Shown here: positions 14,935 through 30,623 of the stretch, piece after piece
Position numbering within the stretch: position 1 is the first letter of the stretch
Layout: each line of letters begins with the position of its first letter
Source: Clostridiales bacterium
GTDB lineage: Bacteria > Bacillota > Clostridia > Lachnospirales > Lachnospiraceae
Assembly: GCA_012735495.1 (NCBI GenBank)
Contig: JAAYHD010000036.1
Coordinates: 1-33,597, forward strand
Length of the DNA stretch: 33,597 nt
Reading direction: 5' to 3'
Notes under the pieces: generated by a model
What the model was told of the DNA's origin: nothing
The model's input: the letters and a program-made list of their open reading frames with translations, nothing else
The model's database searches: none
Made by a program: the position numbers and the translations under genes

Positions 14935-17301
14935 CTATTTCACAATTTCACTGTACACTATACCAAGTCCGACAGTGCCCATATACACTTTCCCATATTC
15001 ATTCATATCACCAACTACAAAGTTACCGTTTCCGGGACCTCCAAATTGGTTTTGGTCATCATTAATGCGGACCCATGTTGTCCCGAAATCTTCCGAGGCA
15101 AATAATCCTTCAGTATCCGGATCTGAAGTAAGACTTCCCCACATATAAATCACATAAGGTCTTCCTTCATTTTTGGGTTTTCCCACTCCAACAGCTTGAC
15201 ATGTCTCAACATTTCTAAAAGTGGTAAAGGTTTCACCATAATTCAGCGAAACTGACAATCCGCCCTTACCCTTTGGAATCAGGATGACGCCTTCCTGACC
15301 GGGAAAGACGGTAAATCTAATTCCACCGCTTAGTATAATATCACGGGAACTGAATGTTCTTCCTCCATCTGTGCTGATGTAGAATGATCTTCCGTTGCAG
15401 GCATATACATAGTCTGGATTTACGGGATCCCACATCAGATATGCACAATCTATTAAGCCTTTACATTCTTCCCATGTAGCGCCCTCATCTTTCGTATAGT
15501 AAGTATAAAATCCATTGGCCGGACTCCAGATAATGGTGGAAGCATCGGGAGAAATGGCAGCATATCCGCCGTATGCTTTATCAGAACCAATTACTCTGGG
15601 AACACTTTTAAGTCCCTTCCAGGTTGCTCCTGCATCTTTCGTATACAGAATCGGAGAAGTTTCTGTAGTGGATACACGCACCCAGTGATCTTTTGCATTG
15701 TAAGCATAAGCAATGCTGCAATTCGTTCCATTCGCGCTTTTAAATTGAATACCATATTCGTGAACATCCTCATGAATAAATCCGCAATAATCACCAATTA
15801 CGGATAACACACTGCCGCTGGGAATGCTAACCAGATCCAAAGGGACCGTCTCCTCTATGCCCTTTGCATTAAAGTAGAAATTCTTTGTCTCATCCCAGAT
15901 ATTGTCACAACTAAAAATACCATTTCCTGATGTAACAAAGATTCTATTCGGGTCAAATGGATCAATCATTAAAGAACCGCACCAGTGAATTGAACTATTC
16001 ATGATCCATGGATTACCATTTGCGTCCATGGTCATATTTTTCATAATATTGGTCCATGTTTTACCGCCATCCTTAGAGATATAGAAAACATCGCCCCATG
16101 AACCGTTAGGTTGTTGCTGCCAAGTATTAATCGTGCAGCATACCATGCGGTCAGCATTGGTAGGATCACTTACAACATCACCAATTGGCCGGCCGTCAGC
16201 AGGTGAAATATCCTCTGCTGTTTTTGTGTTTGGATCATATCGATATATACCGCCATTGCTGCCGTTCGACGGGCCTTCTTGATCAGCATAGGCAATTAAA
16301 AGTTTACCGTTTGCATCCATTTTCATACGTTGCGGCATCCAGTTCTTTGGCAAACCGGATACCGGAGTCCACGTTGCGCCGCCATCCTCCGTTACAAATA
16401 CGTTGTCATCATTAACTCTTGATATTGCCACAAAAATCCTTTGCGTAGCAGACCCCTCTTTACCGGTTGACTTATCAAAGACGACACTGTTTATACCATT
16501 CCTATTAGCAGTAGTGTTAATCTCAAAGGATCTGACCTTTTCCCAGGTATTGCCCCCATCCGTACTTTTTACAAGCCCGCCGGTACGGCCTCCACAGTAT
16601 ATGATATTGCCGTCATTCGGATCCACGGCAATCCGTTCGCCATTTTGCCTTCCCATGCCATTACCGTGTACCCTGATCAGATCAGATACATCAACCTGTC
16701 TTAAGGTATCGCCATAATCCTCTGATATGTAAATTACTGTTTTATTGTTGCTGAAATACTCGCATCCTGCCACCATGTATACTTTGTTCGGTGAACTGGG
16801 ATCAACAGCAAGTCCATCTATACTAAGTAAACCTTTATCCGCAGCGCTGACGCCATAATGCAGTGACTTCCAGGATTTCGTTTCCTCAACCCACCGATAA
16901 GCCCCTCCTACGTCAGTTCTTGCAAAAAACAGGTTCTTTTCTGTTGGAGCACTGATTAATCCGGTTACAAATCCGCCGCCTCCGATAGCCACTTGACCAA
17001 AGGTAAATGTTTCATCCGCCAATGTTGATTCGCCGTCGTTTATCTCATATACAGGTAAAGTCATAATATCCGGTCCCTTTTCTTCATTTGTTTGATTTCC
17101 AACTGTTTCTTTTCCATCATCCTTTGCCTCTATTTCTTCATCATTTGTTTCTATTTCCTCATCCCTTATTTCTATTTCTTCATCCTCTGTTTCTTCCTGA
17201 TTAACATCACTTCCCTTTGATTTACATCCAACTAAAAAGGTTATCCCCATTATAATAATTAATATGAAAACAATTAGCTTACGGTACCCATTACATTCCA
17301 T
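14935..17301 (-). CDS. GH74 xyloglucanase-like surface lipoprotein
   Basis: Glycoside hydrolase of family 74, cleaving the beta-1,4-glucan backbone of xyloglucan by inversion, attached to the outer face of the membrane. The lipobox LVGC puts the lipidated Cys at 26. Residues 31-75 are an acidic spacer with four imperfect EIE/DEEIE repeats. From about 100 on there are two seven-bladed propellers with many Asp-box-like STDGG..W repeats. IGGGGFVTGL and FARTD130VGGAYRW match the first catalytic region of clostridial Xgh74A, and IGD504YCGFIHEDV matches its second catalytic Asp loop. The end (GLGIVYSEIVK) also fits. No CBM or dockerin is present. GGGGAGG precedes the ATG. It is monocistronic and not adjacent to the GH130 operon. 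Confidence 0.92.
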   Translation of the reverse strand: MECNGYRKLIVFILIIIMGITFLVGCKSKGSDVNQEETEDEEIEIRDEEIETNDEEIEAKDDGKETVGNQTNEEKGPDIMTLPVYEINDGESTLADETFTFGQVAIGGGGFVTGLISAPTEKNLFFARTDVGGAYRWVEETKSWKSLHYGVSAADKGLLSIDGLAVDPSSPNKVYMVAGCEYFSNNKTVIYISEDYGDTLRQVDVSDLIRVHGNGMGRQNGERIAVDPNDGNIIYCGGRTGGLVKSTDGGNTWEKVRSFEINTTANRNGINSVVFDKSTGKEGSATQRIFVAISRVNDDNVFVTEDGGATWTPVSGLPKNWMPQRMKMDANGKLLIAYADQEGPSNGSNGGIYRYDPNTKTAEDISPADGRPIGDVVSDPTNADRMVCCTINTWQQQPNGSWGDVFYISKDGGKTWTNIMKNMTMDANGNPWIMNSSIHWCGSLMIDPFDPNRIFVTSGNGIFSCDNIWDETKNFYFNAKGIEETVPLDLVSIPSGSVLSVIGDYCGFIHEDVHEYGIQFKSANGTNCSIAYAYNAKDHWVRVSTTETSPILYTKDAGATWKGLKSVPRVIGSDKAYGGYAAISPDASTIIWSPANGFYTYYTKDEGATWEECKGLIDCAYLMWDPVNPDYVYACNGRSFYISTDGGRTFSSRDIILSGGIRFTVFPGQEGVILIPKGKGGLSVSLNYGETFTTFRNVETCQAVGVGKPKNEGRPYVIYMWGSLTSDPDTEGLFASEDFGTTWVRINDDQNQFGGPGNGNFVVGDMNEYGKVYMGTVGLGIVYSEIVK

Positions 17302-21894: not shown

Positions 21895-22878
21895 TTATAT
21901 TATTGGACAGGTTGTTACAGAATCCCTGTATTTAATTGAACAATCAATGGTAACGGTTCGAACATTCGCCTCCGGATGCTGTAATCTTCTTTTCATAAGT
22001 TGGATGGCCTGCTCTGCCATGAACTCTCTTTGAACATGAGCCGACGTTATCGGCGGATCAGAAATCTCAGAATAGATTACATCATCGAATCCTACCACAC
22101 TGACCTCCTCAGGCACCTTAAAACCGAGGCCTTTTAACTGCTTTATTAATAAAAATGCTGTATGGTCATTGTTGCAAACAAATGCTGTAGGCATATCCGT
22201 TGGGAGTTGAATCTGCTGAAGTATTCCCTTATCGTCTCTATCATCAAGGCGATAATCGGCTCTCAATGGCAATTCCCCTTCCAGCATTGCCTTATAATAA
22301 CCGAGATAACGGTCGTTGACACTGTTGGTATAGTTTAAATTTCCGACAAATGCTATCTTTTTATGGCCCTTGTCAATCAGGTGCGAAGTCAAATTATAAC
22401 TGGCGCGGAAGCTATCTGAGACCACCGAGTCAGCTTCTACACCCCTATAGGAAAAGTCCAGGCAGAGAGTAGGTATTCCAAGACTTTGGACATGCATAAC
22501 ATACTTCCTGGAAAACTGTCCAAGAAACATAATGCCATTAAACTTATCTACTCCGGGATTTAATATGCTTCTTTTTTCATCCTCCCGGCTTACATAAAAC
22601 AAAGAGAATTTCATACTATTGGCCCATCCAAGTTCTTGAAGATACTTATAAAGGCCGCTGTAGAATTTCTCATTTGGTTCAAAGTATACCTCTGAGAAAA
22701 GTACCGCAATGCTGTATTTCAAACGCCTCTTATACTCATAGCCCATCTCTTCTGCCTTTTTTAATATAATGCGCTTTGTTTCTTCTGAAATGTCCTGGCT
22801 GTTTTTAAAACATTTGGATACCGTCATTTTCGATATTCCCAGCTCTGTCGCTATATCCTGCATGGAAACCTTCTTCAA
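21895..22878 (-). CDS. LacI-family transcriptional regulator
   Basis: Sugar-responsive repressor of 327 residues. Residues 4-50 form the LacI headpiece (VSMQDIATELGISKMTVSKC...ISEETKRIILKKAEEMGY). Residues 58-320 are the periplasmic-binding-protein-like effector domain (HKKIAFVGN, PTAFVCNNDHTAF, VSVVGFDDV). The TTG start has GAGGTGAA upstream. It is the last gene of the operon, 36 bases after the DUF1861-like gene, and probably represses the promoter near 30600. The effector is likely a transported or phosphorolysed sugar. Confidence 0.93.
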   Translation of the reverse strand: MKKVSMQDIATELGISKMTVSKCFKNSQDISEETKRIILKKAEEMGYEYKRRLKYSIAVLFSEVYFEPNEKFYSGLYKYLQELGWANSMKFSLFYVSREDEKRSILNPGVDKFNGIMFLGQFSRKYVMHVQSLGIPTLCLDFSYRGVEADSVVSDSFRASYNLTSHLIDKGHKKIAFVGNLNYTNSVNDRYLGYYKAMLEGELPLRADYRLDDRDDKGILQQIQLPTDMPTAFVCNNDHTAFLLIKQLKGLGFKVPEEVSVVGFDDVIYSEISDPPITSAHVQREFMAEQAIQLMKRRLQHPEANVRTVTIDCSIKYRDSVTTCPII

Positions 22879-22914: not shown

Positions 22915-23856
22915 TTAATACTTCCGGCATGCCTTATTATTAATTGCATGAAACGGATTTTGAATAGTGAAATATTGTACTTCACAATCCGAAACCCCAA
23001 CGTAAAGTATCGCTTGTTCTCCTATCAAATGAAGTCCCCCGGGGAAGAGGACATCTTCCAGGTCCAGTCGTTTACTTTCACCTGCCAGGAGGTCCCTGCG
23101 CTCAGCCAATATAACAGGAGGCGTAAAGGACATATCTTCAGGCGAGAATATAAAGGCCATGGGATAATAATGACGCGTTTTCTCCGGTCCGAAACATGCA
23201 ATGTGCCCCAGTACACCTATCTTACCATCCGGAAGCAGAACAGCCTCATTTACACCGCCCCATTCCTCTTCTACGAACATATTTAAAAGAGGAGCTTCCT
23301 CCAAAATGGCAGGTGTTATGCTTTTGAAATCATCAACCACGGTAAAGCCTATTTTGCCCCGTCCGCCCTTTTCGCCCTGGGGCCTGGTAAAAATTCCAAT
23401 TCTTTTATCCAAAAGCTCTACCAAACGTATATCTTTCATCCCTAAGGGGCCTTGCGTTAATCTTTCCAGATTCTCAAGAGTATCTCCATAGTAAAATGCC
23501 GTATGCCAGTTAAGCCATTCCGGATTCGTAGGATGCGGGAATACCTCTGTACCACCCAGTACATACTTTCCGCATACTTTTGCTATACTTGGGTCCTGGA
23601 GAGGATACCGTTTCATTTCTTCCATAACGCGATATACATCTTTTTCTATCTCGTGAAAAAAAACTGCTTGAGAAACCTCGCTGTCCCTTTTCTCAACACG
23701 GGCACAGATTATATTCTTCCCTTTGTAATGGAAAGGTGCGGTAGGATTATATACATCAAAGCCGTCTACACCAAGAAATGTAAGGCGTTTTGCCTGGATT
23801 TTTACAGCCTTATTTCTATAAGCCTCAAGCATTTTAGGTAACATACTATCCGTCAT
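22915..23856 (-). CDS. DUF1861-like protein, GH130-associated beta-propeller
   Basis: 313 residues. I recognise the DUF1861 pattern from its motifs: LTFLGVDGFDVYNPTAPF, RVEKRDSE, GMKDIRLVELLDKRIGIFTR, PQGEKGGRGKIGF, EEEWGGVNEA and GKIGVLGHIACF. The fold is probably a five-bladed propeller related to GH43/GH130 enzymes, but to my knowledge no activity is established. There is no signal peptide, so it is cytoplasmic. GGGAGAAG precedes the ATG, and the gene starts 11 bases after GH130. The tight pairing suggests it acts on the same oligosaccharide, as an enzyme or accessory factor. Confidence 0.85.
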   Translation of the reverse strand: MTDSMLPKMLEAYRNKAVKIQAKRLTFLGVDGFDVYNPTAPFHYKGKNIICARVEKRDSEVSQAVFFHEIEKDVYRVMEEMKRYPLQDPSIAKVCGKYVLGGTEVFPHPTNPEWLNWHTAFYYGDTLENLERLTQGPLGMKDIRLVELLDKRIGIFTRPQGEKGGRGKIGFTVVDDFKSITPAILEEAPLLNMFVEEEWGGVNEAVLLPDGKIGVLGHIACFGPEKTRHYYPMAFIFSPEDMSFTPPVILAERRDLLAGESKRLDLEDVLFPGGLHLIGEQAILYVGVSDCEVQYFTIQNPFHAINNKACRKY

Positions 23857-23867
23857 AATCTTCTCCC

Positions 23868-24944
23868 TTAAGTTTTTAAGCCCATGGAAACGAAAACCTC
23901 TTCCAGGGATATTTTTGCACGGGCAATTTTATCATCTGCCGCTCCATAATAAATAATCAGCATGCCGTCTTCCAGCAGGCATCCGCAGGAAAATACAACA
24001 TTTCCAAAAAAGCCTTCCGCTTCATATTCCGTTTCCGGTTCCAATATTGCATTTTCCGTCTTTGCTATGATTTTATCCGGTTGTTTCAAGTCTGTCAACA
24101 TGGCTCCCAGGCAGTACCGATTCTGCCTGTCCGCGCCATGGTAAATGTGTAACCAGCCTTTCTCCGTATAAATTGGTGGCGCGCCGCTTCCGATGCGTCC
24201 GCTTTCCCATCCATCTTCTGTCACTCCACAGACATGTTTATGATTCCCCCAGTGGATAAGATCAGGAGAAGAGGCCAGCCAGATATCGGGAGTTCCGATG
24301 CCATTAGGAACCGGTCTGTGGCATGCATAATATAAACCATTTATTTTTCTCGGAAATATCACTACGTCCTTATTTTCCGGCGGGAAAATTACGCCCATTC
24401 TGTGAAACTCACTAAAATCCGTGGTAATTAAGAGTCCGGGCATAACTCCCATATCAGATACTGCCGTATAAGTGATGCAGTACCTGTCTTCTTCTTCCAT
24501 ATAGGTAATACGGGGGTCTTCCATACCCCATCTCTCATATTTTCCGCAAAAAGGGATTGCCGGTTTTTCGTCTACCGTAAAGTTAATGCCGTCCATGCTT
24601 CTAGCAATACGCAGATGGGATATTGAAGTCAGATTGACTACACTTCTGAAACCCGCATCGTTTTTCAGTACAACGACCCTGGGATCGCTAATATCATATC
24701 TCTCCTGTATCTGCTTTCTGCTCAGTTTCCTGATGCAGATATCATCTATTTGTTCGTCATATACCGGGTAGCACAAATAATCTTCTTCCTGTATAGCACA
24801 GGATTCCGCTACTCTGCATAATAAAATATATTCGTTATCTTTTTTCGCTGCGCCGCAGTTGAACACACCGTCCACCTTCAGGAATTCCCTGGAAGGCTTT
24901 ATGTCTGCGGCAGTTAAGATTGGCTTTTGTGGTTCTCTTATCAT
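23868..24944 (-). CDS. GH130 family glycoside phosphorylase (beta-mannoside type)
   Basis: Cytoplasmic enzyme that splits a beta-mannoside with phosphate, giving mannose 1-phosphate and a shortened sugar. About 358 residues. Family motifs are NPIL-like QKPILT near the N-terminus, FNCGAAKKDNEYILLCRV, WGMEDPRI with the likely catalytic Asp, DVVIFPRKINGLYYACHRP, and SGAPPIYTEKGWLHIYHG. I prefer the ATG at 24944 because GGTGAG stands five bases before it; the frame opens at TTG 24956, directly after the stop of the upstream gene. The subfamily (beta-1,4- or beta-1,2-mannoside, or mannosyl-GlcNAc) cannot be decided by eye. Confidence 0.88.
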   Translation of the reverse strand: MIREPQKPILTAADIKPSREFLKVDGVFNCGAAKKDNEYILLCRVAESCAIQEEDYLCYPVYDEQIDDICIRKLSRKQIQERYDISDPRVVVLKNDAGFRSVVNLTSISHLRIARSMDGINFTVDEKPAIPFCGKYERWGMEDPRITYMEEEDRYCITYTAVSDMGVMPGLLITTDFSEFHRMGVIFPPENKDVVIFPRKINGLYYACHRPVPNGIGTPDIWLASSPDLIHWGNHKHVCGVTEDGWESGRIGSGAPPIYTEKGWLHIYHGADRQNRYCLGAMLTDLKQPDKIIAKTENAILEPETEYEAEGFFGNVVFSCGCLLEDGMLIIYYGAADDKIARAKISLEEVFVSMGLKT

Positions 24945-24956
24945 CTTTCTCACCAA

Positions 24957-26900
24957 CTAGCGACTAAAATTCAATCGTATACTTGTTCTGTCTGTTTTAT
25001 GGTCTGTTGTTATGACGCTTACATTCACAGTTTTACTGCCTTCCGTAAAGTCCTTCGTGTTAATCTCCACGTTATTTACATCGGAATAATACAGCTTGGC
25101 ACCATCGATTTCCACGATTATCTGTTCCAGCTTAGTTTCAGGATTGGTATTAACTATATTAAGGTCTAATTTAAATTTACCCGAAACCTGCTCATTGTTT
25201 TGAAGATTATTTATACTTACACTCAGTGTATCGGATGCAATCCAAAGATTATTTGCATAATAATGACCGTCTTTATGTGTAATTTCACTTCCTGCAGGGA
25301 GCTCAATAATGACTGCCGCTTCATCAGCATCGAGCTTTAATTCATATTTGCCGGACACGTCTTCTGCAATCACCTGTTTTGTCACGCTGTTAAATAAATC
25401 CCAGCTGCCTTCCGGAAGCTCATAGGTTACTTTCTTATTCCTGTCATATGGATTATATAGGAGCCATACGGCATAACCGGGATCTGCTTCCATAGCATTA
25501 CAATTAATCTTAAGAATCTTATCAACATCGGTCTTATCTACAACAGAAGCGAACAACCCTATATGCGCGCCGCTGTAAATAGACAGATCCGTGTTTGCCC
25601 ACCCATAAACAGTGGGATCTCCGCCGATCCATGGTGTCTTCGAGTTGCCGCTTCTCCGTATGCCTTCATAAGGCACGGCATCTTTGGATATTTCTATGAA
25701 TTCTTTTGCCGCCTTATCTGCGGATGCGGATTGATTTGACGGATCGGTCTCTCCTGAAAAGAAATACCGGGCGTTGGAAGATACGTTTAAATACCAGATT
25801 CCCATTGCTTTTGCATAACGGGTATCATGTTTCGCCAGGGAGGATAAGGCATATCCTGCGGCAAAGGTATTCATGGAAAAGGCATAGCCCCCTCCGTCTG
25901 TGGTACTCCCCATTAGTCCGTTCATGTTATAGTCTCCCCATGTGCCGACTATGGAGCCCCAGCCGCCTCTGGGAATAGAACTGCCATTAAAAACATCTCC
26001 CAGAAGATTATCAATATTATAATCCGTGTTCCTCTGCGCGTTCATCCTGGCAGCCAGGCCAGGCGCAAAGTACAACAACAGCTCGTAAAGAGCACTGCCG
26101 TCAAATTCATTGACATAGTCAAGACACTCCGAAACCGCTTTCGCATATTTTTCCTCGCCTGTCATTTCATAGCCCATCTGAAAAAGCATCGCCAAACCGG
26201 CTGCACAATCAGGTTCCTTCCATACCCCGTTATCATAGGGCTCCATGGTAATAAAATTGAAGCCCGTATAATTAAAGCTTTCAGTTTCCTTCATTATTAA
26301 AAAAGCTTCATACCATCTCTCTATGGTTGATAAAGCATCCCGGCGAATCTGCTCTTCCCGGGGATAACGGATGGATACCTGGGTAAACAGGATTGCAGGA
26401 TAAATCAGATACCACATGGAGGTTGACGCAGATGAACCGGCGGGATTGTTTAGGATTATCCCCTCTTCCTCTGAATAATAGGCATGAAGCTGCTCTACAT
26501 AATTGACTCCGTTCTGCTTGCTTTTATCGATTCCTATCTGGGTAGCACTTAAGACTGCGGCAACTGTCGCCACCGCTTCCTGAGAACCATTGTTTCCTGT
26601 CCGCCCATCACCGACATAGGCCGCAAAACCGAATGTGCTGTTGGTCTTATCCTGCCAAATCAAGGGCAAATAAGGGCCCGACGCATCCTCGTCAAATATG
26701 ATATTGTCGTATAAAAGCGCCTTTTCCTTATAATCAAACCATTTATAATTTTTCGGAATCACACTATCATAACGATTGATGCGCGCTATCTCCTTTTGTC
26801 CAGTTATATTCTTTTCCGGGCTGCCTGAATTAACCTTTGCGCATCCGGTGGCCTGAAAAATCAGGCATAAAACCAACAGCAATACGGTTATTCTTCTCAT
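24957..26900 (-). CDS. Surface lipoprotein of unknown family, glycoside-hydrolase-like layout
   Basis: 647 residues, family not recognised. The lipobox ends at Cys20 (QATGC), so the protein is exported and anchored. Residues about 85-470 look like an alpha/alpha barrel: repeated helical segments (AVATVAAVLSATQIGI, SMWYLIYPAILF, EPDCAAGLAMLFQMGYEM, AFSMNTFAAGYALSSLAKHD) joined by loops rich in G, W, D and Y (IPRGGWGSIVGTWGDYN, STTDGGGYAF, GWANTDLSIYSG). Residues about 480-545 resemble the beta-sandwich that often closes such enzymes (GSWDLFNSVTKQ, DADEAAVIIELP). Residues 550-647 form an Ig-like domain. Encoded between a transporter and GH130, it is probably an extracellular glycan-cleaving or glycan-binding protein. 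Function is inference. Confidence 0.75.
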   Translation of the reverse strand: MRRITVLLLVLCLIFQATGCAKVNSGSPEKNITGQKEIARINRYDSVIPKNYKWFDYKEKALLYDNIIFDEDASGPYLPLIWQDKTNSTFGFAAYVGDGRTGNNGSQEAVATVAAVLSATQIGIDKSKQNGVNYVEQLHAYYSEEEGIILNNPAGSSASTSMWYLIYPAILFTQVSIRYPREEQIRRDALSTIERWYEAFLIMKETESFNYTGFNFITMEPYDNGVWKEPDCAAGLAMLFQMGYEMTGEEKYAKAVSECLDYVNEFDGSALYELLLYFAPGLAARMNAQRNTDYNIDNLLGDVFNGSSIPRGGWGSIVGTWGDYNMNGLMGSTTDGGGYAFSMNTFAAGYALSSLAKHDTRYAKAMGIWYLNVSSNARYFFSGETDPSNQSASADKAAKEFIEISKDAVPYEGIRRSGNSKTPWIGGDPTVYGWANTDLSIYSGAHIGLFASVVDKTDVDKILKINCNAMEADPGYAVWLLYNPYDRNKKVTYELPEGSWDLFNSVTKQVIAEDVSGKYELKLDADEAAVIIELPAGSEITHKDGHYYANNLWIASDTLSVSINNLQNNEQVSGKFKLDLNIVNTNPETKLEQIIVEIDGAKLYYSDVNNVEINTKDFTEGSKTVNVSVITTDHKTDRTSIRLNFSR

Positions 26901-26911
26901 ACTCTTCTCAC

Positions 26912-27466
26912 TTATTTAGTATTTAATAATAGAATTTCAGATACGGAAACAATTGCTTCAGGGCCGCCTGCCGGATAAATCCACAGCTTAACCTTGCACT
27001 TCTCACCATAAATGGATATGAAGTCATCACCCAATGCCTCTTTCAAATTAACGCCTGCATATTTGTTCCATTTTAAATTGTTGTCAGGCATAATATAGAA
27101 GCCCCATTGGTGATCTTCCATCGCGTTTTCAGGCACTACTTTCATACCCCAATTGCATCCGTCCGGGTTTTCAAAAATCTTTGCCAGGATCATTGGCTCC
27201 TTATTTAAATCAATTTCAAAGTAACCGGATTCCAAGCCTCCCCATCCGTCTGAAGCAGCTTTAATCGTAACATAGCCATCCGTGTCATTTACACTTTCTA
27301 CACTGCCTGATCCGCTTCCCTCGATGGGAGTCTGCATTGTTCCCCAGGACGCGATGTCCTTGTAGCTGAACTGCTTAACTACTTGCCACCCTCCTTTGCT
27401 GCTGCAGCCTATAAGAAGAGATGCAGCCATTGCCAGGACTAATACTAACGCGATTACTTTTTTCAT
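26912..27466 (-). CDS. Small beta-rich lipoprotein, possible carbohydrate-binding protein
   Basis: About 184 residues from the third of three consecutive ATGs, the one best spaced from GGAGG (the first ATG at 27472 is also possible). The signal peptide ends in the lipobox LIGC. The mature part has no catalytic signature that I can name. It alternates short beta strands with aromatic residues (GWGGLESGYFEIDL, CNWGMKVV, HQWGFYIMPDNNLKW) and ends VSVSEILLL, which suggests a jelly-roll such as a CBM-like domain. It lies 11 bases before the large lipoprotein and after the permeases, so it may hold the glycan near the transporter. Confidence 0.65.
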   Translation of the reverse strand: MKKVIALVLVLAMAASLLIGCSSKGGWQVVKQFSYKDIASWGTMQTPIEGSGSGSVESVNDTDGYVTIKAASDGWGGLESGYFEIDLNKEPMILAKIFENPDGCNWGMKVVPENAMEDHQWGFYIMPDNNLKWNKYAGVNLKEALGDDFISIYGEKCKVKLWIYPAGGPEAIVSVSEILLLNTK

Positions 27467-27519
27467 CATCATTCCTCCATTCTTAATTACTTATTCTACC
27501 CTTTCCATATATGTTTTGC

Positions 27520-28380
27520 TTAACCCTTAATTCCTCCCAGCTTTATACCCTCCATGAAATATTTCTGGGCGTAAAGCAAAAGAGCAATAATCGGGATTAA
27601 TGCCATGCATGATGCCGCCATCAGCGGTCCCCAGAGTGTCTCTCCCGTCATGGAGCTGAAAGACGCCAAGGCAAGCTGTACCGTATATTTGTGTTGAGAA
27701 TCAATGTAAATCAACTGTCCAAGCAAATCGTTCCATGTGCCCATAAAGGACCATAGGCTTATAGTTACTAAAGCCGGTTTTGCCATGGGTATAAAGATCA
27801 TGTAAAATACCTTAAGATTTTTCGCGCCGTCCAGCCAGGCCGCTTCCTCGTAGTCCTTAGGAATCGTTTCAAAGTACATGCGCATAAAGAAGATAAAGGA
27901 AGCGGAACCGCAGAACGCGGGAAGCACAAGCGGTACATAGCTGTCAGAAAGCCCTAAATGGGACCATATCATAAAGGTAGGTATCATGGTAACCTCATAG
28001 GGCAACATCATGGTAGCCAACAAAATCATAAACAGTATGTTCCTGCCCTTAAATGCAAAGCGGGCAAAACCAAAGGCCACCAAGGCTGAAACAAATACCT
28101 CTCCTAATATTTTAGGAACGGCAATAATCACTGTATTCAGCATATTTTTCGCGATTGGCACGACCCTTAATGCCTTTATGTAATTTTCGAATGTTATTTT
28201 TTGGGGTAACCATTTAATTGGAATGGAAAAGATATCATTTTCTACCTTAAAGCTGGTAGACACCATCCAGACAAATGGCAGCAGCATCATAACGGATCCC
28301 AGAACCAAAACCACGTATAAAGCTGTCAACCTGCCTCTGCCCAAATGCTTACCCGTTTTTTTGCGTTTTCCCCAACTCAT
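27520..28380 (-). CDS. Sugar ABC transporter permease, MalG type
   Basis: 286 residues, six membrane helices, inner-membrane half of a CUT1 oligosaccharide importer. The EAA cytoplasmic loop YEEAAWLDGAKNLKVFY followed by IPMAKPAL is the docking site for the ATPase. The C-terminus YAQKYFMEGIKLGGIKG is typical of MalG-like subunits. It is 20 bases downstream of the MalF-type gene. No ATPase is encoded in the operon, so a shared MsiK/UgpC-type ATPase must serve it. Confidence 0.95.
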   Translation of the reverse strand: MSWGKRKKTGKHLGRGRLTALYVVLVLGSVMMLLPFVWMVSTSFKVENDIFSIPIKWLPQKITFENYIKALRVVPIAKNMLNTVIIAVPKILGEVFVSALVAFGFARFAFKGRNILFMILLATMMLPYEVTMIPTFMIWSHLGLSDSYVPLVLPAFCGSASFIFFMRMYFETIPKDYEEAAWLDGAKNLKVFYMIFIPMAKPALVTISLWSFMGTWNDLLGQLIYIDSQHKYTVQLALASFSSMTGETLWGPLMAASCMALIPIIALLLYAQKYFMEGIKLGGIKG

Positions 28381-28400: not shown

Positions 28401-29258
28401 CTACTCACTGTATACCCAGTATTTTTTCGTCCAGTTCACAATAATGGTCAAAAGGAGAATGATTGCAAACAGTATCCATGCCAGTGCTGTCGCATAACCC
28501 ATCCTGTAATGGCTGAAGGCCTCCTCGTACAGGTAAACCATATAGAAATTGCCTTCCTTGCCTGCTCCGCCCAATACATAGGCATCTGTAAATTTGCGAA
28601 AGGCCGCAATAATTCCCAGAACCAAATTATAAAAAATAATTGGTGTCATCAGGGGGATGGTGATATATTTCACTTTCTTCCACGTATTTGCCCCGTCTAT
28701 CATGGCCGCGTCATACAAATCCTGCGGGATGTCTTTTAACGCAGCCAGATATGTTAGCAGGCTTCCTCCCGCTCCCCACATCGCCATGATAAGGTAGGAA
28801 GGCAGCACCCAATCAGGGTCATACAGCCAATCAGGCCCTTTAATATGGAAGAAGGATAATACACCGTTAATCAGACCGTAGCTTGGATCAAGTATCCACT
28901 TGAATACAATAGCAACAGCAACACCTGAGACAATTGCAGGCATATAATAGATAACCCTGAAAATTCTCATTCCCTTATAATTCTTTGAAACCATTACTGC
29001 CATGGTCAGGGAAGTTGCTATAATAAGAGGTACCGCAAGAATGGCATACCGGAAAGTTACCCATAAGCTTTTTATGAATTCTTCCGATCGGAAGACATTT
29101 TTAAAATTATCCAATCCTATGAATTTCGCATTCCCCACAATATCCCAATCGGTCAGGCTGATATAAGCTGCTGCCAGCATCGGAAAGGCAGTAAATACAA
29201 TCAGGCCGATCAGCCATGGAAGTATGAAATAAAACCCTGCTCTTTGTCTTTTCTTCAT
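28401..29258 (-). CDS. Sugar ABC transporter permease, MalF type
   Basis: 285 residues, six membrane helices. It starts KKRQRAGFYFILPWLIGLIV in the usual way and has AYISLTDWD and the EAA loop YDAAMIDGANTWKKVKY with IPLMTP. It pairs with the MalG-type permease as the second half of the channel. Spacing to the binding-protein gene is 22 bases. Confidence 0.95.
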   Translation of the reverse strand: MKKRQRAGFYFILPWLIGLIVFTAFPMLAAAYISLTDWDIVGNAKFIGLDNFKNVFRSEEFIKSLWVTFRYAILAVPLIIATSLTMAVMVSKNYKGMRIFRVIYYMPAIVSGVAVAIVFKWILDPSYGLINGVLSFFHIKGPDWLYDPDWVLPSYLIMAMWGAGGSLLTYLAALKDIPQDLYDAAMIDGANTWKKVKYITIPLMTPIIFYNLVLGIIAAFRKFTDAYVLGGAGKEGNFYMVYLYEEAFSHYRMGYATALAWILFAIILLLTIIVNWTKKYWVYSE

Positions 29259-29280: not shown

Positions 29281-30552
29281 CTATCTTTTACTGATCAAAT
29301 CCTGCGAGTAGGCCTGGATCTCATCCATCTGGCTCCTGTAATCGAAGGACGCATCATTTAACAGCGATACATAAAGGTTATACCAAAGCTTGTCGTTAAT
29401 ATCCGACCATTCAGGTATGTAGTTTGCGGAACGGGCATAATCCATGATATAGGCAATGGTCTCCATTGCCACTTCCTTCTTTGGATTAATCTTAATAACA
29501 TTATTTATTGAGCCCTTTACCGGCGGTACGATCTTCCATTCAAAAAAGGCTTTTGTTACGGCTTCCAGTGCCTTATATGCCAAATCGTTTCCTTCAAGGC
29601 TCTTAGCCATTACAGTAGACGCCGTCCAGTCAAAGCTCCATGGGCTTCCGTCATCGCATACCGGCATAGGCGCATAACCAATCTCAAACTTCTCCGATTC
29701 ATCCATCTTGTCGACCTTGGTTTCAAAATTGTCCTGTACCCCGCCAAAGAACATGGCAACACGCTGCTTTTCAAACCAGACATTGTTGGAGCCAAGACTG
29801 GCCACTTCGGCATACCTGGGGCTTAGGCCTTCTTTAATAATCGTCTGCAGATAGCCCATGCCCTTCTTGGCTTCCTCTGAAGCCAAGACAATCGTCTCGC
29901 CGTCTTTTGCAATGATATCACCACCACCGGCCCATATGAAGGTTTCGATATTCGGCCATCCGTCAATTATCGTTCCATACACTGTATTTCCTTTGTATTC
30001 CTTGCCCGATACCTGGCGGCATATATCAATGAATTCCTCCCATGTCCAGTCGTCGGTAGCAGTCGGGCATTCAATTCCCAACTCATCAAACATGGTTTTG
30101 TTATAAAAGACAATGATTGGATTAGCTATCCATGGCAGTCCCCAGTAGGAGCCGTTATATTCCGCCGATGCCAATACCCCTTCATAATACATATCCGGGA
30201 TCAGACTATCACTATGCTTGAATTGCTCTGTGATGTCAGCCAGCGCTCCCATCTTCGCATATTTTGAAATCAACTCCTGGGTAAGCCAAAAGAAATCAGG
30301 GCTGTTTTTTGCGGCAATCTTCGTAGAAATCTTTACATAATAGTCGGAAGGAATACTCAGCACTTCGATTTTATATTCACCTGCGGCTTCTTCATTAACT
30401 TTGTCGATCACAGCCTGGAATTCCTCAAGTTCCGTACCGGCCGCCCAGGTCGCAAAGGTAAATGTGTTTTTATCCTTGCTATTTTTACTGCAGCCATTCA
30501 GCATGCTTAAAACTAATAAAAACACGATCCATATTAGGATGTTTCTTTTCAC
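29281..30552 (-). CDS. Sugar ABC transporter solute-binding lipoprotein
   Basis: Extracellular receptor of the CUT1 importer, 423 residues. The signal peptide ends in NGC with Cys21 as lipid anchor. The family-1 solute-binding pattern is clear: FTFATWAAGTELEEFQAVI, DFFWLTQELISKYAKMGALADIT, YWGLPWIANPIIVFYNKTMFDELGI and WTWEEF. The GTG start is preceded by GGAGGAGG. It is the first gene of the operon. Many Trp/Tyr in the binding region fit an oligosaccharide, but the ligand is unknown. Confidence 0.95.
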   Translation of the reverse strand: MKRNILIWIVFLLVLSMLNGCSKNSKDKNTFTFATWAAGTELEEFQAVIDKVNEEAAGEYKIEVLSIPSDYYVKISTKIAAKNSPDFFWLTQELISKYAKMGALADITEQFKHSDSLIPDMYYEGVLASAEYNGSYWGLPWIANPIIVFYNKTMFDELGIECPTATDDWTWEEFIDICRQVSGKEYKGNTVYGTIIDGWPNIETFIWAGGGDIIAKDGETIVLASEEAKKGMGYLQTIIKEGLSPRYAEVASLGSNNVWFEKQRVAMFFGGVQDNFETKVDKMDESEKFEIGYAPMPVCDDGSPWSFDWTASTVMAKSLEGNDLAYKALEAVTKAFFEWKIVPPVKGSINNVIKINPKKEVAMETIAYIMDYARSANYIPEWSDINDKLWYNLYVSLLNDASFDYRSQMDEIQAYSQDLISKR

Positions 30553-30573: not shown

Positions 30574-30623
30574 TGTAACTTTACACTATAATTATATTAT
30601 AACCTGTCACCTGAATATGTCAA
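30574..30623 (-). promoter_or_regulatory. Promoter and putative LacI operator of the glycan operon
   Basis: On the minus strand TTGACA (30618-30623), 16 bases, TATAAT (30596-30601) is a full-consensus promoter. About ten bases downstream lies the symmetric TGTAAAGTTACA (30574-30585), two TGTAA/TTACA half sites around two bases. LacI-family regulators bind TGTAA-type half sites, and a site overlapping the transcription start would block initiation. The promoter is well supported, the operator is inference. Confidence 0.75.

Follow-up and report, generated by a model that had tools for sequence, protein, structure and literature searches.

A lipoprotein with a predicted (alpha/alpha)6 barrel, encoded beside GH130 and DUF1861 genes in a Clostridiales bacterium, is a candidate extracellular beta-1,2-mannan hydrolase of an unnamed family

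Introduction

Bacterial beta-1,2-mannoside phosphorylases have been in the literature since 2014 at the latest (PMC4264767); for beta-1,2-mannosidases that are secreted and exo-acting, the corresponding year is 2015 (PMC4599007). Among the former, Teth514_1788 and Teth514_1789 of Thermoanaerobacter are encoded with ATP-binding cassette (ABC) transporter genes (PMC4264767), in a cluster that also has GH5 and GDP-mannose genes and two hypothetical proteins (Teth514_1785 and Teth514_1791). The latter include BT3780 and BACOVA_03624, secreted members of glycoside hydrolase (GH) family 130 that cut Man-beta1,2-Man (PMC4599007); they are five-bladed propellers, exo-acting on Candida mannan. The sources listed for beta-1,2-mannan in PMC4264767 are Candida, trypanosomatids and some O-antigens. 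Our literature search, which covered mostly open papers and could have missed a recent family, met no endo-acting beta-1,2-mannan depolymerase. Here we analyze a 33,597-nucleotide contig of a Clostridiales bacterium of the Lachnospiraceae (JAAYHD010000036.1, hereafter the window), and within it two adjacent lipoprotein genes, here called BIG and SMALL, which share an operon with a GH130 gene, a DUF1861 gene and genes of an ABC importer. Our results favor, with a probability of about 0.6, the view that BIG is an extracellular (alpha/alpha)6-barrel beta-1,2-mannan hydrolase of an unnamed family, probably endo-acting, that SMALL binds the polymer, and that the importer and the phosphorylases follow.

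A works-like analogue of the BIG system is the beta-1,2-glucan pathway, which combines an outer endo-beta-1,2-glucanase of family GH144 (PF10091) with an inner beta-1,2-glucooligosaccharide phosphorylase, but its polymer is a glucan and not a mannan. GH144-type beta-1,2-glucan enzymes are mentioned in PMC11842490. With BT3780 and BACOVA_03624, BIG has no sequence kinship.

Results and discussion

The operon and the sugar it points to

BIG and SMALL belong to a run of eight minus-strand genes extending from position 30552 to 21895, with intergenic gaps of 0-47 bases (successively 22, 20, 47, 11, 0, 11 and 36). The run begins with an ABC solute-binding lipoprotein (29281..30552; Pfam SBP_bac_8 3.3e-24, SBP_bac_1 1.3e-23), followed by two open reading frames (ORFs; 28401..29258 and 27520..28380) that are putative ABC sugar permeases by family resemblance and are conserved in homologous operons. 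Next come SMALL (26912..27472), of 186 amino acids or 184 from a downstream ATG, and BIG (24957..26900), of 647 amino acids, and then the genes for GH130 (23868..24956), DUF1861 (22915..23856) and a LacI-family regulator (21895..22878; Pfam Peripla_BP_3 and LacI). No ORF for an importer ATPase was seen within the eight genes.

The GH130 protein matches PF04041 (6.8e-54; 183.4 bits, cut-off 26), and its closest sequence in the PDB is that of Lin0857 (1.7e-95), followed by Uhgb_MS. Lin0857 is a beta-1,2-mannobiose phosphorylase (PMC8950772), and one PDB entry of Uhgb_MS names a 1,2-beta-manno ligand. The DUF1861 protein matches PF08950 (6.3e-112; 373.9 bits, cut-off 28), with 2b4w (2.6e-47) and the Leishmania enzyme MPT-4 (6q50, 6e-46) as PDB relatives. 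The MPT enzymes of Leishmania, phosphorylase/mannosyltransferases of glycosyltransferase family GT108, act on mannogen, a beta-1,2-mannan (PMC8950772); they turn over an internal store there, whereas the context here is one of uptake. Judged by these sequence relations, beta-1,2-linked mannose is the sugar indicated by GH130 and by DUF1861 alike.

A preliminary description, made from the letters of the window, had pictured two unclassified surface lipoproteins at 24957-27466, the larger one as perhaps the missing extracellular depolymerase of an operon with an importer and one intracellular phosphorylase; as checks it had named profile and fold searches, conserved Asp/Glu in loops, and the co-occurrence of homologues with GH130 and DUF1861. 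Both proteins indeed start with a signal peptide that ends in a lipobox, as read from the sequence (...LIFQATGC(20) in BIG, ...SLLIGC(23) in SMALL). The importer and the GH130 enzyme stood, and the number of phosphorylases has to be revised, since the kinship of DUF1861 with Leishmania GT108 gives the operon two phosphorylase-type enzymes.

Predicted fold and conserved residues of BIG

An AlphaFold2 model of BIG was obtained from a 64-row alignment (A3), composed of the window protein and 63 of the 66 ORFs of 500-700 amino acids found in related loci; those of L030, L031 and L103, near copies or N-terminally cut, were left out. The model reached a predicted local distance difference test (pLDDT) score of 94.8, mostly above 90 per residue, and a predicted template modeling score (pTM) of 0.92. 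Domain limits and hairpins, read from the DSSP string, gave six helical hairpins (57-451), a beta-sandwich (about 454-549) and an Ig-like domain (about 552-646), the last of which is absent in two plasmid-borne members and in L020 (alignment A2). In the predicted model the helix pairs (57-68/109-121, 134-141/162-178, 183-205/232-247, 250-265/275-290, 296-304/342-358 and 360-380/441-451, the last with its inner helix broken) read as those of an (alpha/alpha)6 barrel.

When this model was compared with the PDB by Foldseek, 42 matches were obtained at E<=1e-3, most of them glycosidases or sugar epimerases/isomerases. GH127 led (4qk0, 2.6e-07), and after it came GH146, a xanthanase, BT_1003, glucodextranase (GH15), GH9 endoglucanases, AGE-type epimerases and YihS; outside this limit, a GH76 match had E 1.1e-3. 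Model and fold search thus bear out the barrel, sandwich and Ig-like layout that the preliminary description had read from the letters.

Residues E108, W163, Y164, Y272, E273, R311, N344, E412, D428, Y442 and N483 are identical in all 64 rows of A3. A wider set of 101 BIG-domain ORFs retains E273 and E412 in 101/101, as well as Y164, Y272 and Y442; E108 is kept in 100/100 (one ORF being unaligned there) and D428 in 100/101; D231 is Asp in 82/100 and Glu in 15/100, and D335 varies (Asp in 72/101). According to the DSSP string of the predicted model, E108, E273, E412 and D428 stand in loops leading into inner helices. Such loops, the limits of which were picked after viewing the model, are enriched in conserved positions, both at >=95% conservation (28/154 vs 17/267, Fisher p 2.6e-4) and at >=90% (35/154 vs 29/267, p 0.0018). 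On the model, E273 and E412 would be the first catalytic candidates, along with E108 and D428, which agrees with the conserved loop acids that had been looked for. Simple rules applied to the 92 BIG ORFs with the N-terminus inside the locus detected a hydrophobic stretch in 84 and a lipobox-like motif in 36.

SMALL as a probable binding partner

The model of SMALL is a beta-sandwich (pLDDT 87.0). Three Foldseek matches were found at E<=1e-3, namely the C. fimi cellulose-binding domain 1cx1 (4.9e-04), of carbohydrate-binding module (CBM) family 4, as well as CBM22 and CBM15; CBM6 and the mannan-binding CBM27 (3.5e-3) were further matches. The TM-scores to CBMs were about 0.34-0.60, and non-CBM folds, a MAM domain (rank 5) and pro-BMP9 (rank 14), matched as well. 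SMALL is like these CBMs in fold, and it has no sequence family in Pfam or NCBIfam. In 17 aligned sequences (A5: the window SMALL plus 16 of the 18 SMALL ORFs, L028 and L031 left out) W43, W77, W108, W123 and W164 are invariant. Where SMALL is a separate gene it lies directly upstream of BIG (18/18 such loci), and in L022, L101 and the large proteins of L046-L049 the chain continues after the BIG domain with SMALL-like modules. The natural reading of the model and of this linkage is that SMALL is a carbohydrate-binding partner of BIG, in keeping with the lone CBM-like jelly roll proposed earlier.

BIG relatives and their neighborhoods

Searching the genome_contigs collection with the single BIG sequence found nothing; an alignment-based scan (A2) recovered 128 BIG relatives among 173 candidate stretches, and the best 80 of these 128 loci were analyzed. 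ORFs of >=100 amino acids were called by a longest-ORF rule, which yielded a BIG ORF in 79/80 loci (not in L078). With profiles built here, GH130 was detected in 51/80 loci, DUF1861 in 20/80 and either of them in 55/80; restricting the count to the 48 loci of 15 kb or more gave 36, 15 and 39. The density of GH130 in ten BIG-bearing genomes of the window's phylum (17 genes in about 24.9 Mb, from 18 matches of which two fall in one gene) would give an expectation of 0.84 genes in the 1.23 Mb of locus DNA. B. ovatus has seven GH130 proteins (PMC4599007); since Bacteroidota can carry more GH130, the true expectation may be somewhat higher, though only by a small factor. The co-occurrence with GH130 and DUF1861 that the preliminary description had named as a check was observed.

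Two unlike import systems accompany BIG, which we count in favor of the proposed role. Most Bacillota and some Spirochaetota loci contain a solute-binding protein, two permeases, SMALL and BIG, with GH130, DUF1861 and LacI in varying number; in Bacteroidota the order is SusC-SusD-GH130-MFS-BIG (14/80 loci) or GH130-MFS-BIG-SusC-SusD (10/80), where MFS denotes a major facilitator superfamily transporter. Pfam and NCBIfam scans of neighbors took in chosen proteins: the cluster names SusC, SusD, GH13 and phosphomannomutase rest on the Pfam match of one representative each (L082 for SusC and SusD), and the MFS label on one match just under the cut-off (33.1 of 33.4 bits) plus a plasmid annotation. 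In Lentisphaera (L098) DUF1861, BIG, an MFS transporter and GH130 stand together. The GH130 protein of a Paenibacillus locus (L048) passes NCBIfam NF050092 (BtaManbiosPhlase) with 651.4 bits, and that of a Pedobacter locus of SusC/D type is closest to Uhgb_MS (5.2e-155). In the locus DNA examined, seven of the 14 SusC-SusD-GH130-MFS-BIG loci (L058, L067, L077, L082, L087, L090 and L095) show neither a GH13 gene nor the protein of about 820 amino acids described below, so that BIG is the only candidate for a secreted enzyme visible in them.

BIG is rare within any one group and yet taxonomically wide. The single protein found it in 2/299 genomes of the family and 3/392 of the order, and a 4-row profile in 5/391 of the class and 5/398 of the phylum, the window's own genome being counted; two of the five class-level genomes (G814, model 1-110; G652, model 3-55) matched in the N-terminal part only and were not counted as relatives. 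The kept loci come from Lachnospiraceae, Clostridia, Paenibacillus, Treponema and Spirochaetia, on the side of Bacillota and Spirochaetota, and from Bacteroidota, Verrucomicrobia, Lentisphaera, Planctomycetota, Armatimonadota, Aerophobetes and archaeal metagenome-assembled genomes. Two Persicobacteraceae plasmids bear BIG: GH130-MFS-BIG-SusC-SusD occurs on plasmids of Persicobacter psychrovividus and Aureibacter tunicatorum (L017 and L018), with BIG annotated as 'hypothetical protein' in both. Spread by viruses was discarded, as none of 19 pattern matches in viral contigs was a relative.

Within the 299 family genomes, a strong DUF1861 match (E<1e-100) was present in six and BIG in two, both BIG genomes being among the six; the chance of this overlap is 3.4e-4, on very small numbers and taking both scans to cover the same 299 genomes. 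Neither BIG nor SMALL was found in the stretches examined from the other four (L108-L111). Three of these (L108-L110) hold GH130, DUF1861 and LacI with a different ABC set, and two of the three also carry an ORF that is GH13-like at its N-terminus; in the fourth, a short contig (L111), no GH130 was seen, and the ORF rule did not list its DUF1861 gene. Family genomes with GH130 and DUF1861 and without BIG are expected if BIG serves only users of the polymer, and the pattern fits a polymer-using version of the pathway with BIG and an oligosaccharide-scavenging version lacking it.

Some BIG relatives have no signal peptide (L046:12009-13649, L048:12856-14490 and L053:1625-3247). In Paenibacillus L046 and L048 the signal-less relative lies close to a BIG of 990-993 amino acids, and these paired forms suggest inside and outside versions of the protein. 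A very distant relative of 461 amino acids, also without signal peptide (L024:8809-10191, genome G491; 24% identity in A2), belongs to an ABC operon that has DUF1861, LacI and a GH2-like gene close by; G491, which is 84% complete, gave no match for GH130.

Several further genes recur beside BIG. A GH13 alpha-amylase-type gene is located 0.1-5.9 kb from it in 10/80 loci of ABC and SusC/D types alike (L072:13390-15015, the copy assigned by Pfam, and L073, L068, L104, L091, L092, L028, L029, L033 and L034). The protein of about 820 amino acids occurs in 7/80 loci, all of Bacteroidota type (L072:10883-13351; L089:10698-13163; L081:16801 onwards; start fragments in L084, L088, L097 and L100); the N-terminus of its L072 copy looks like a signal sequence, and no relative was found in Pfam (four copies), NCBIfam (three copies) or the PDB (the L072 copy). 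It is possibly a second enzyme of the pathway. A second Bacteroidota paralogue, of about 1030-1060 amino acids, shares the locus with BIG in L104 (3303-6413), L066, L080, L107 and L017 (27057-30155); the L104 copy combines a PKD-like part and a LamG domain with a secretion-sorting tail at the C-terminus. Sulfatases stand beside BIG in a Lentisphaerales locus (L083:4903-6969) and in a Phycisphaerae locus (L075), a hint that the substrates of some members may be sulfated.

A proposed pathway and the points against it

We infer hydrolysis, its endo mode, the substrate with its linkage, and the catalytic residues of the BIG system. BIG, anchored at the cell surface, would cut beta-1,2-mannan, or those parts of a larger glycan that consist of beta-1,2-mannose, to oligosaccharides, probably in endo fashion, and SMALL, as a separate lipid-anchored CBM, would keep the polymer close. 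The binding protein and permeases of the ABC importer would bring the oligosaccharides in, and inside the cell DUF1861 (GT108 type) and GH130 would split them with phosphate into mannose 1-phosphate and mannose. A phosphomannomutase/phosphoglucomutase gene, 43-238 bases from BIG in 4/80 loci, could process mannose 1-phosphate onward. The missing extracellular depolymerase of the preliminary description is in this way supported by fold, conserved acids and the GH130/DUF1861 context.

A wider proposal, for which the odds seem to us slightly less than even, is that BIG founds a family of endo-beta-1,2-mannanases and SMALL a family of beta-1,2-mannan-binding CBMs, and that, with the phosphorylases of GH130 and GT108 type, the two make up a complete pathway widely shared among Bacillota, Bacteroidota, Spirochaetota, Lentisphaerota, Planctomycetota and others. 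The presence of BIG beside phosphorylases in several phyla suggests that beta-1,2-mannan is a commoner microbial food than its listed sources imply. The BIG family and its likely binding module make the question of a beta-1,2-mannan depolymerase directly testable, and BIG, if the proposal is true, would be a tool to cut an immunologically active fungal glycan.

A number of observations weigh against the proposed role. The window GH130 falls below the NCBIfam cut-offs of NF050092 (437 of 550 bits) and NF052550 (beta-1,2-mannobiose phosphorylase; 231 of 450 bits). The TM-scores of BIG to solved barrels are low (0.21-0.50), and its Foldseek list includes non-enzymes, namely a tail protein of phage SSV19 at rank 8 and a fibronectin pair at rank 38; with low scores and a phage tail protein at such a rank, the comparison indicates a fold class for BIG and not a family. 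Neither a lipobox nor a hydrophobic N-terminus was seen in 7/92 BIG ORFs, and therefore not all members work outside the cell. The best 80 loci are biased to near relatives. In 6/14 SusC-SusD-GH130-MFS-BIG loci the secreted-looking protein of about 820 amino acids is encoded before SusC or after BIG, and in 2/14 (L072 and L073) BIG is followed by a GH13 gene; the one or the other could contribute to the degradation. GH130 and DUF1861 are both missing from 25/80 loci, some of them short contigs, including 9 of the 48 long ones, and the neighbors are of other kinds in Phycisphaerae L075 (sulfatases) and Arenibacter L061 (unrelated genes). Part of the family thus has other contexts, as the long loci without either gene indicate, and may do something else. 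Finally, among the ten BIG-bearing genomes examined, G491 (84% complete) has BIG and DUF1861 and no GH130, and three more (G659, G1024 and G1261) have their GH130 genes on contigs other than that of BIG.

Alternative explanations

The first alternative is that BIG is a glycoside hydrolase acting on another linkage, for example on a backbone with beta-1,2-mannose caps, or an exo enzyme releasing mannobiose or mannose, the phosphorylases then treating whatever is imported. GH130 spans many beta-mannosides (PMC8950772), and Candida mannan is an alpha-mannan with beta-1,2-mannose that secreted Bacteroides GH130 hydrolases remove by exo action (PMC4599007). GH127 is an example of an exo enzyme with a barrel of the BIG type, and the GH13 genes (10/80), the protein of about 820 amino acids (7/80) and the sulfatases of L083 and L075 indicate that some natural substrates may be mixed. 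A composite glycan, however, would need enzymes from elsewhere in the seven Bacteroidota loci where BIG is the sole visible candidate, and the combination of DUF1861 with a Lin0857-like GH130 indicates beta-1,2-mannose, contrary to another linkage. We regard this alternative as unlikely, although it survives better than the others.

It is less likely still that BIG is a divergent member of an established CAZy family, or of a recent one missing from the copies of Pfam and NCBIfam used here (dated 2025 and June 2026). Many members of this fold class are known, and the comparison covered Pfam, NCBIfam and the PDB; within that scope, however, no convincing match appeared. BIG gave only sub-threshold matches in Pfam (MetallophosN 0.0021, 18.7 bits vs a cut-off of 35.6) and nothing at E<=1 in NCBIfam. 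Against PDB sequences the best E-value was 0.14 with the single sequence and 0.037 with the 64-row profile. Across the 64 members any one Pfam family was matched by four at most and any NCBIfam family by one, all weakly; MetallophosN, Fimbrial_CS1, C5-epim_C, VirArc_Nuclease and DUF7601 were discarded as below cut-off or restricted to 1-4 of the 64 members with weak E-values. The unclassified status given earlier to both lipoproteins, and the outcome of the profile search for BIG, stand accordingly.

The structural neighbors were also considered as families. The GH127/GH146 beta-L-arabinofuranosidases resemble BIG in joining a helical barrel to a beta-sandwich and were its top Foldseek matches; they differ in a TM-score of about 0.3 and an identity of 8-11%. 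GH127 has a Cys/Zn catalytic set, which is without counterpart in BIG, where no Cys is found among the invariant or nearly invariant columns. PF07944 (GH127/GH146) matched neither BIG nor any of the 64 members, and hhalign gave 10.2% over 35 columns, with small alignments of low power. GH9 endoglucanases, glucodextranase and the GH76 mannosidase Bt3792 share the barrel type, and no sequence relation to BIG was found; GH9, the only one of them compared by profile, gave 1.6% with 4 sequences (low power) and no match to PF00759 in BIG or the 64 members. Membership in PF10091 was rejected at 0.5% (3 sequences) and 0.1% (7 sequences, cut at locus ends), the power of this comparison being low because the two PF10091 sets score just 40.7% against each other. 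By contrast, a distant true relative gave 99.9% probability. BIG is probably a new hydrolase family of little-explored specificity on a known barrel, set apart by Pfam, NCBIfam, the PDB and a few profile comparisons.

A third alternative would make BIG a surface protein that binds or modifies glycan, with an epimerase- or lectin-like barrel and no depolymerase activity. Sugar epimerase/isomerase folds are among its Foldseek matches, C5-epim_C is weakly matched by 4/64 members (best 7.7e-4), and binding proteins such as those with SusD and LamG are common in BIG loci. Nevertheless, a binder would not usually have two acids that are invariant and two that nearly are, a CBM-like protein is already present beside BIG in the form of SMALL, the smallest loci would have no visible depolymerase if BIG only binds, and in Paenibacillus L046 and L048 a short signal-less relative lies close to the large BIG. 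We consider this explanation improbable. A polysaccharide lyase was set aside, as the neutral mannan proposed as substrate would offer no uronic acid, a matter of general knowledge.

Other features of the window

Upstream of the gene for the solute-binding lipoprotein, a promoter-like site TTGACA-16-TATAAT (30596..30623, minus strand) matches the sigma-70-type consensus at 12/12 positions. Promoter-like sites overall are not above shuffled sequence (28 vs 25.0 +/- 4.9), and this match is not evidence of function.

The preliminary description had seen no recognizable secreted glycosidase, which is right for the operon and not for the window as a whole. A lipoprotein-like protein of 788 amino acids and GH74 type (xyloglucanase type) is encoded at 14935-17301 on the minus strand, outside the operon and 4.6 kb past its end; its relatives in the PDB are 6p2l (8.1e-144), 7kn8 (1.2e-108) and 2cn2 (3e-97).

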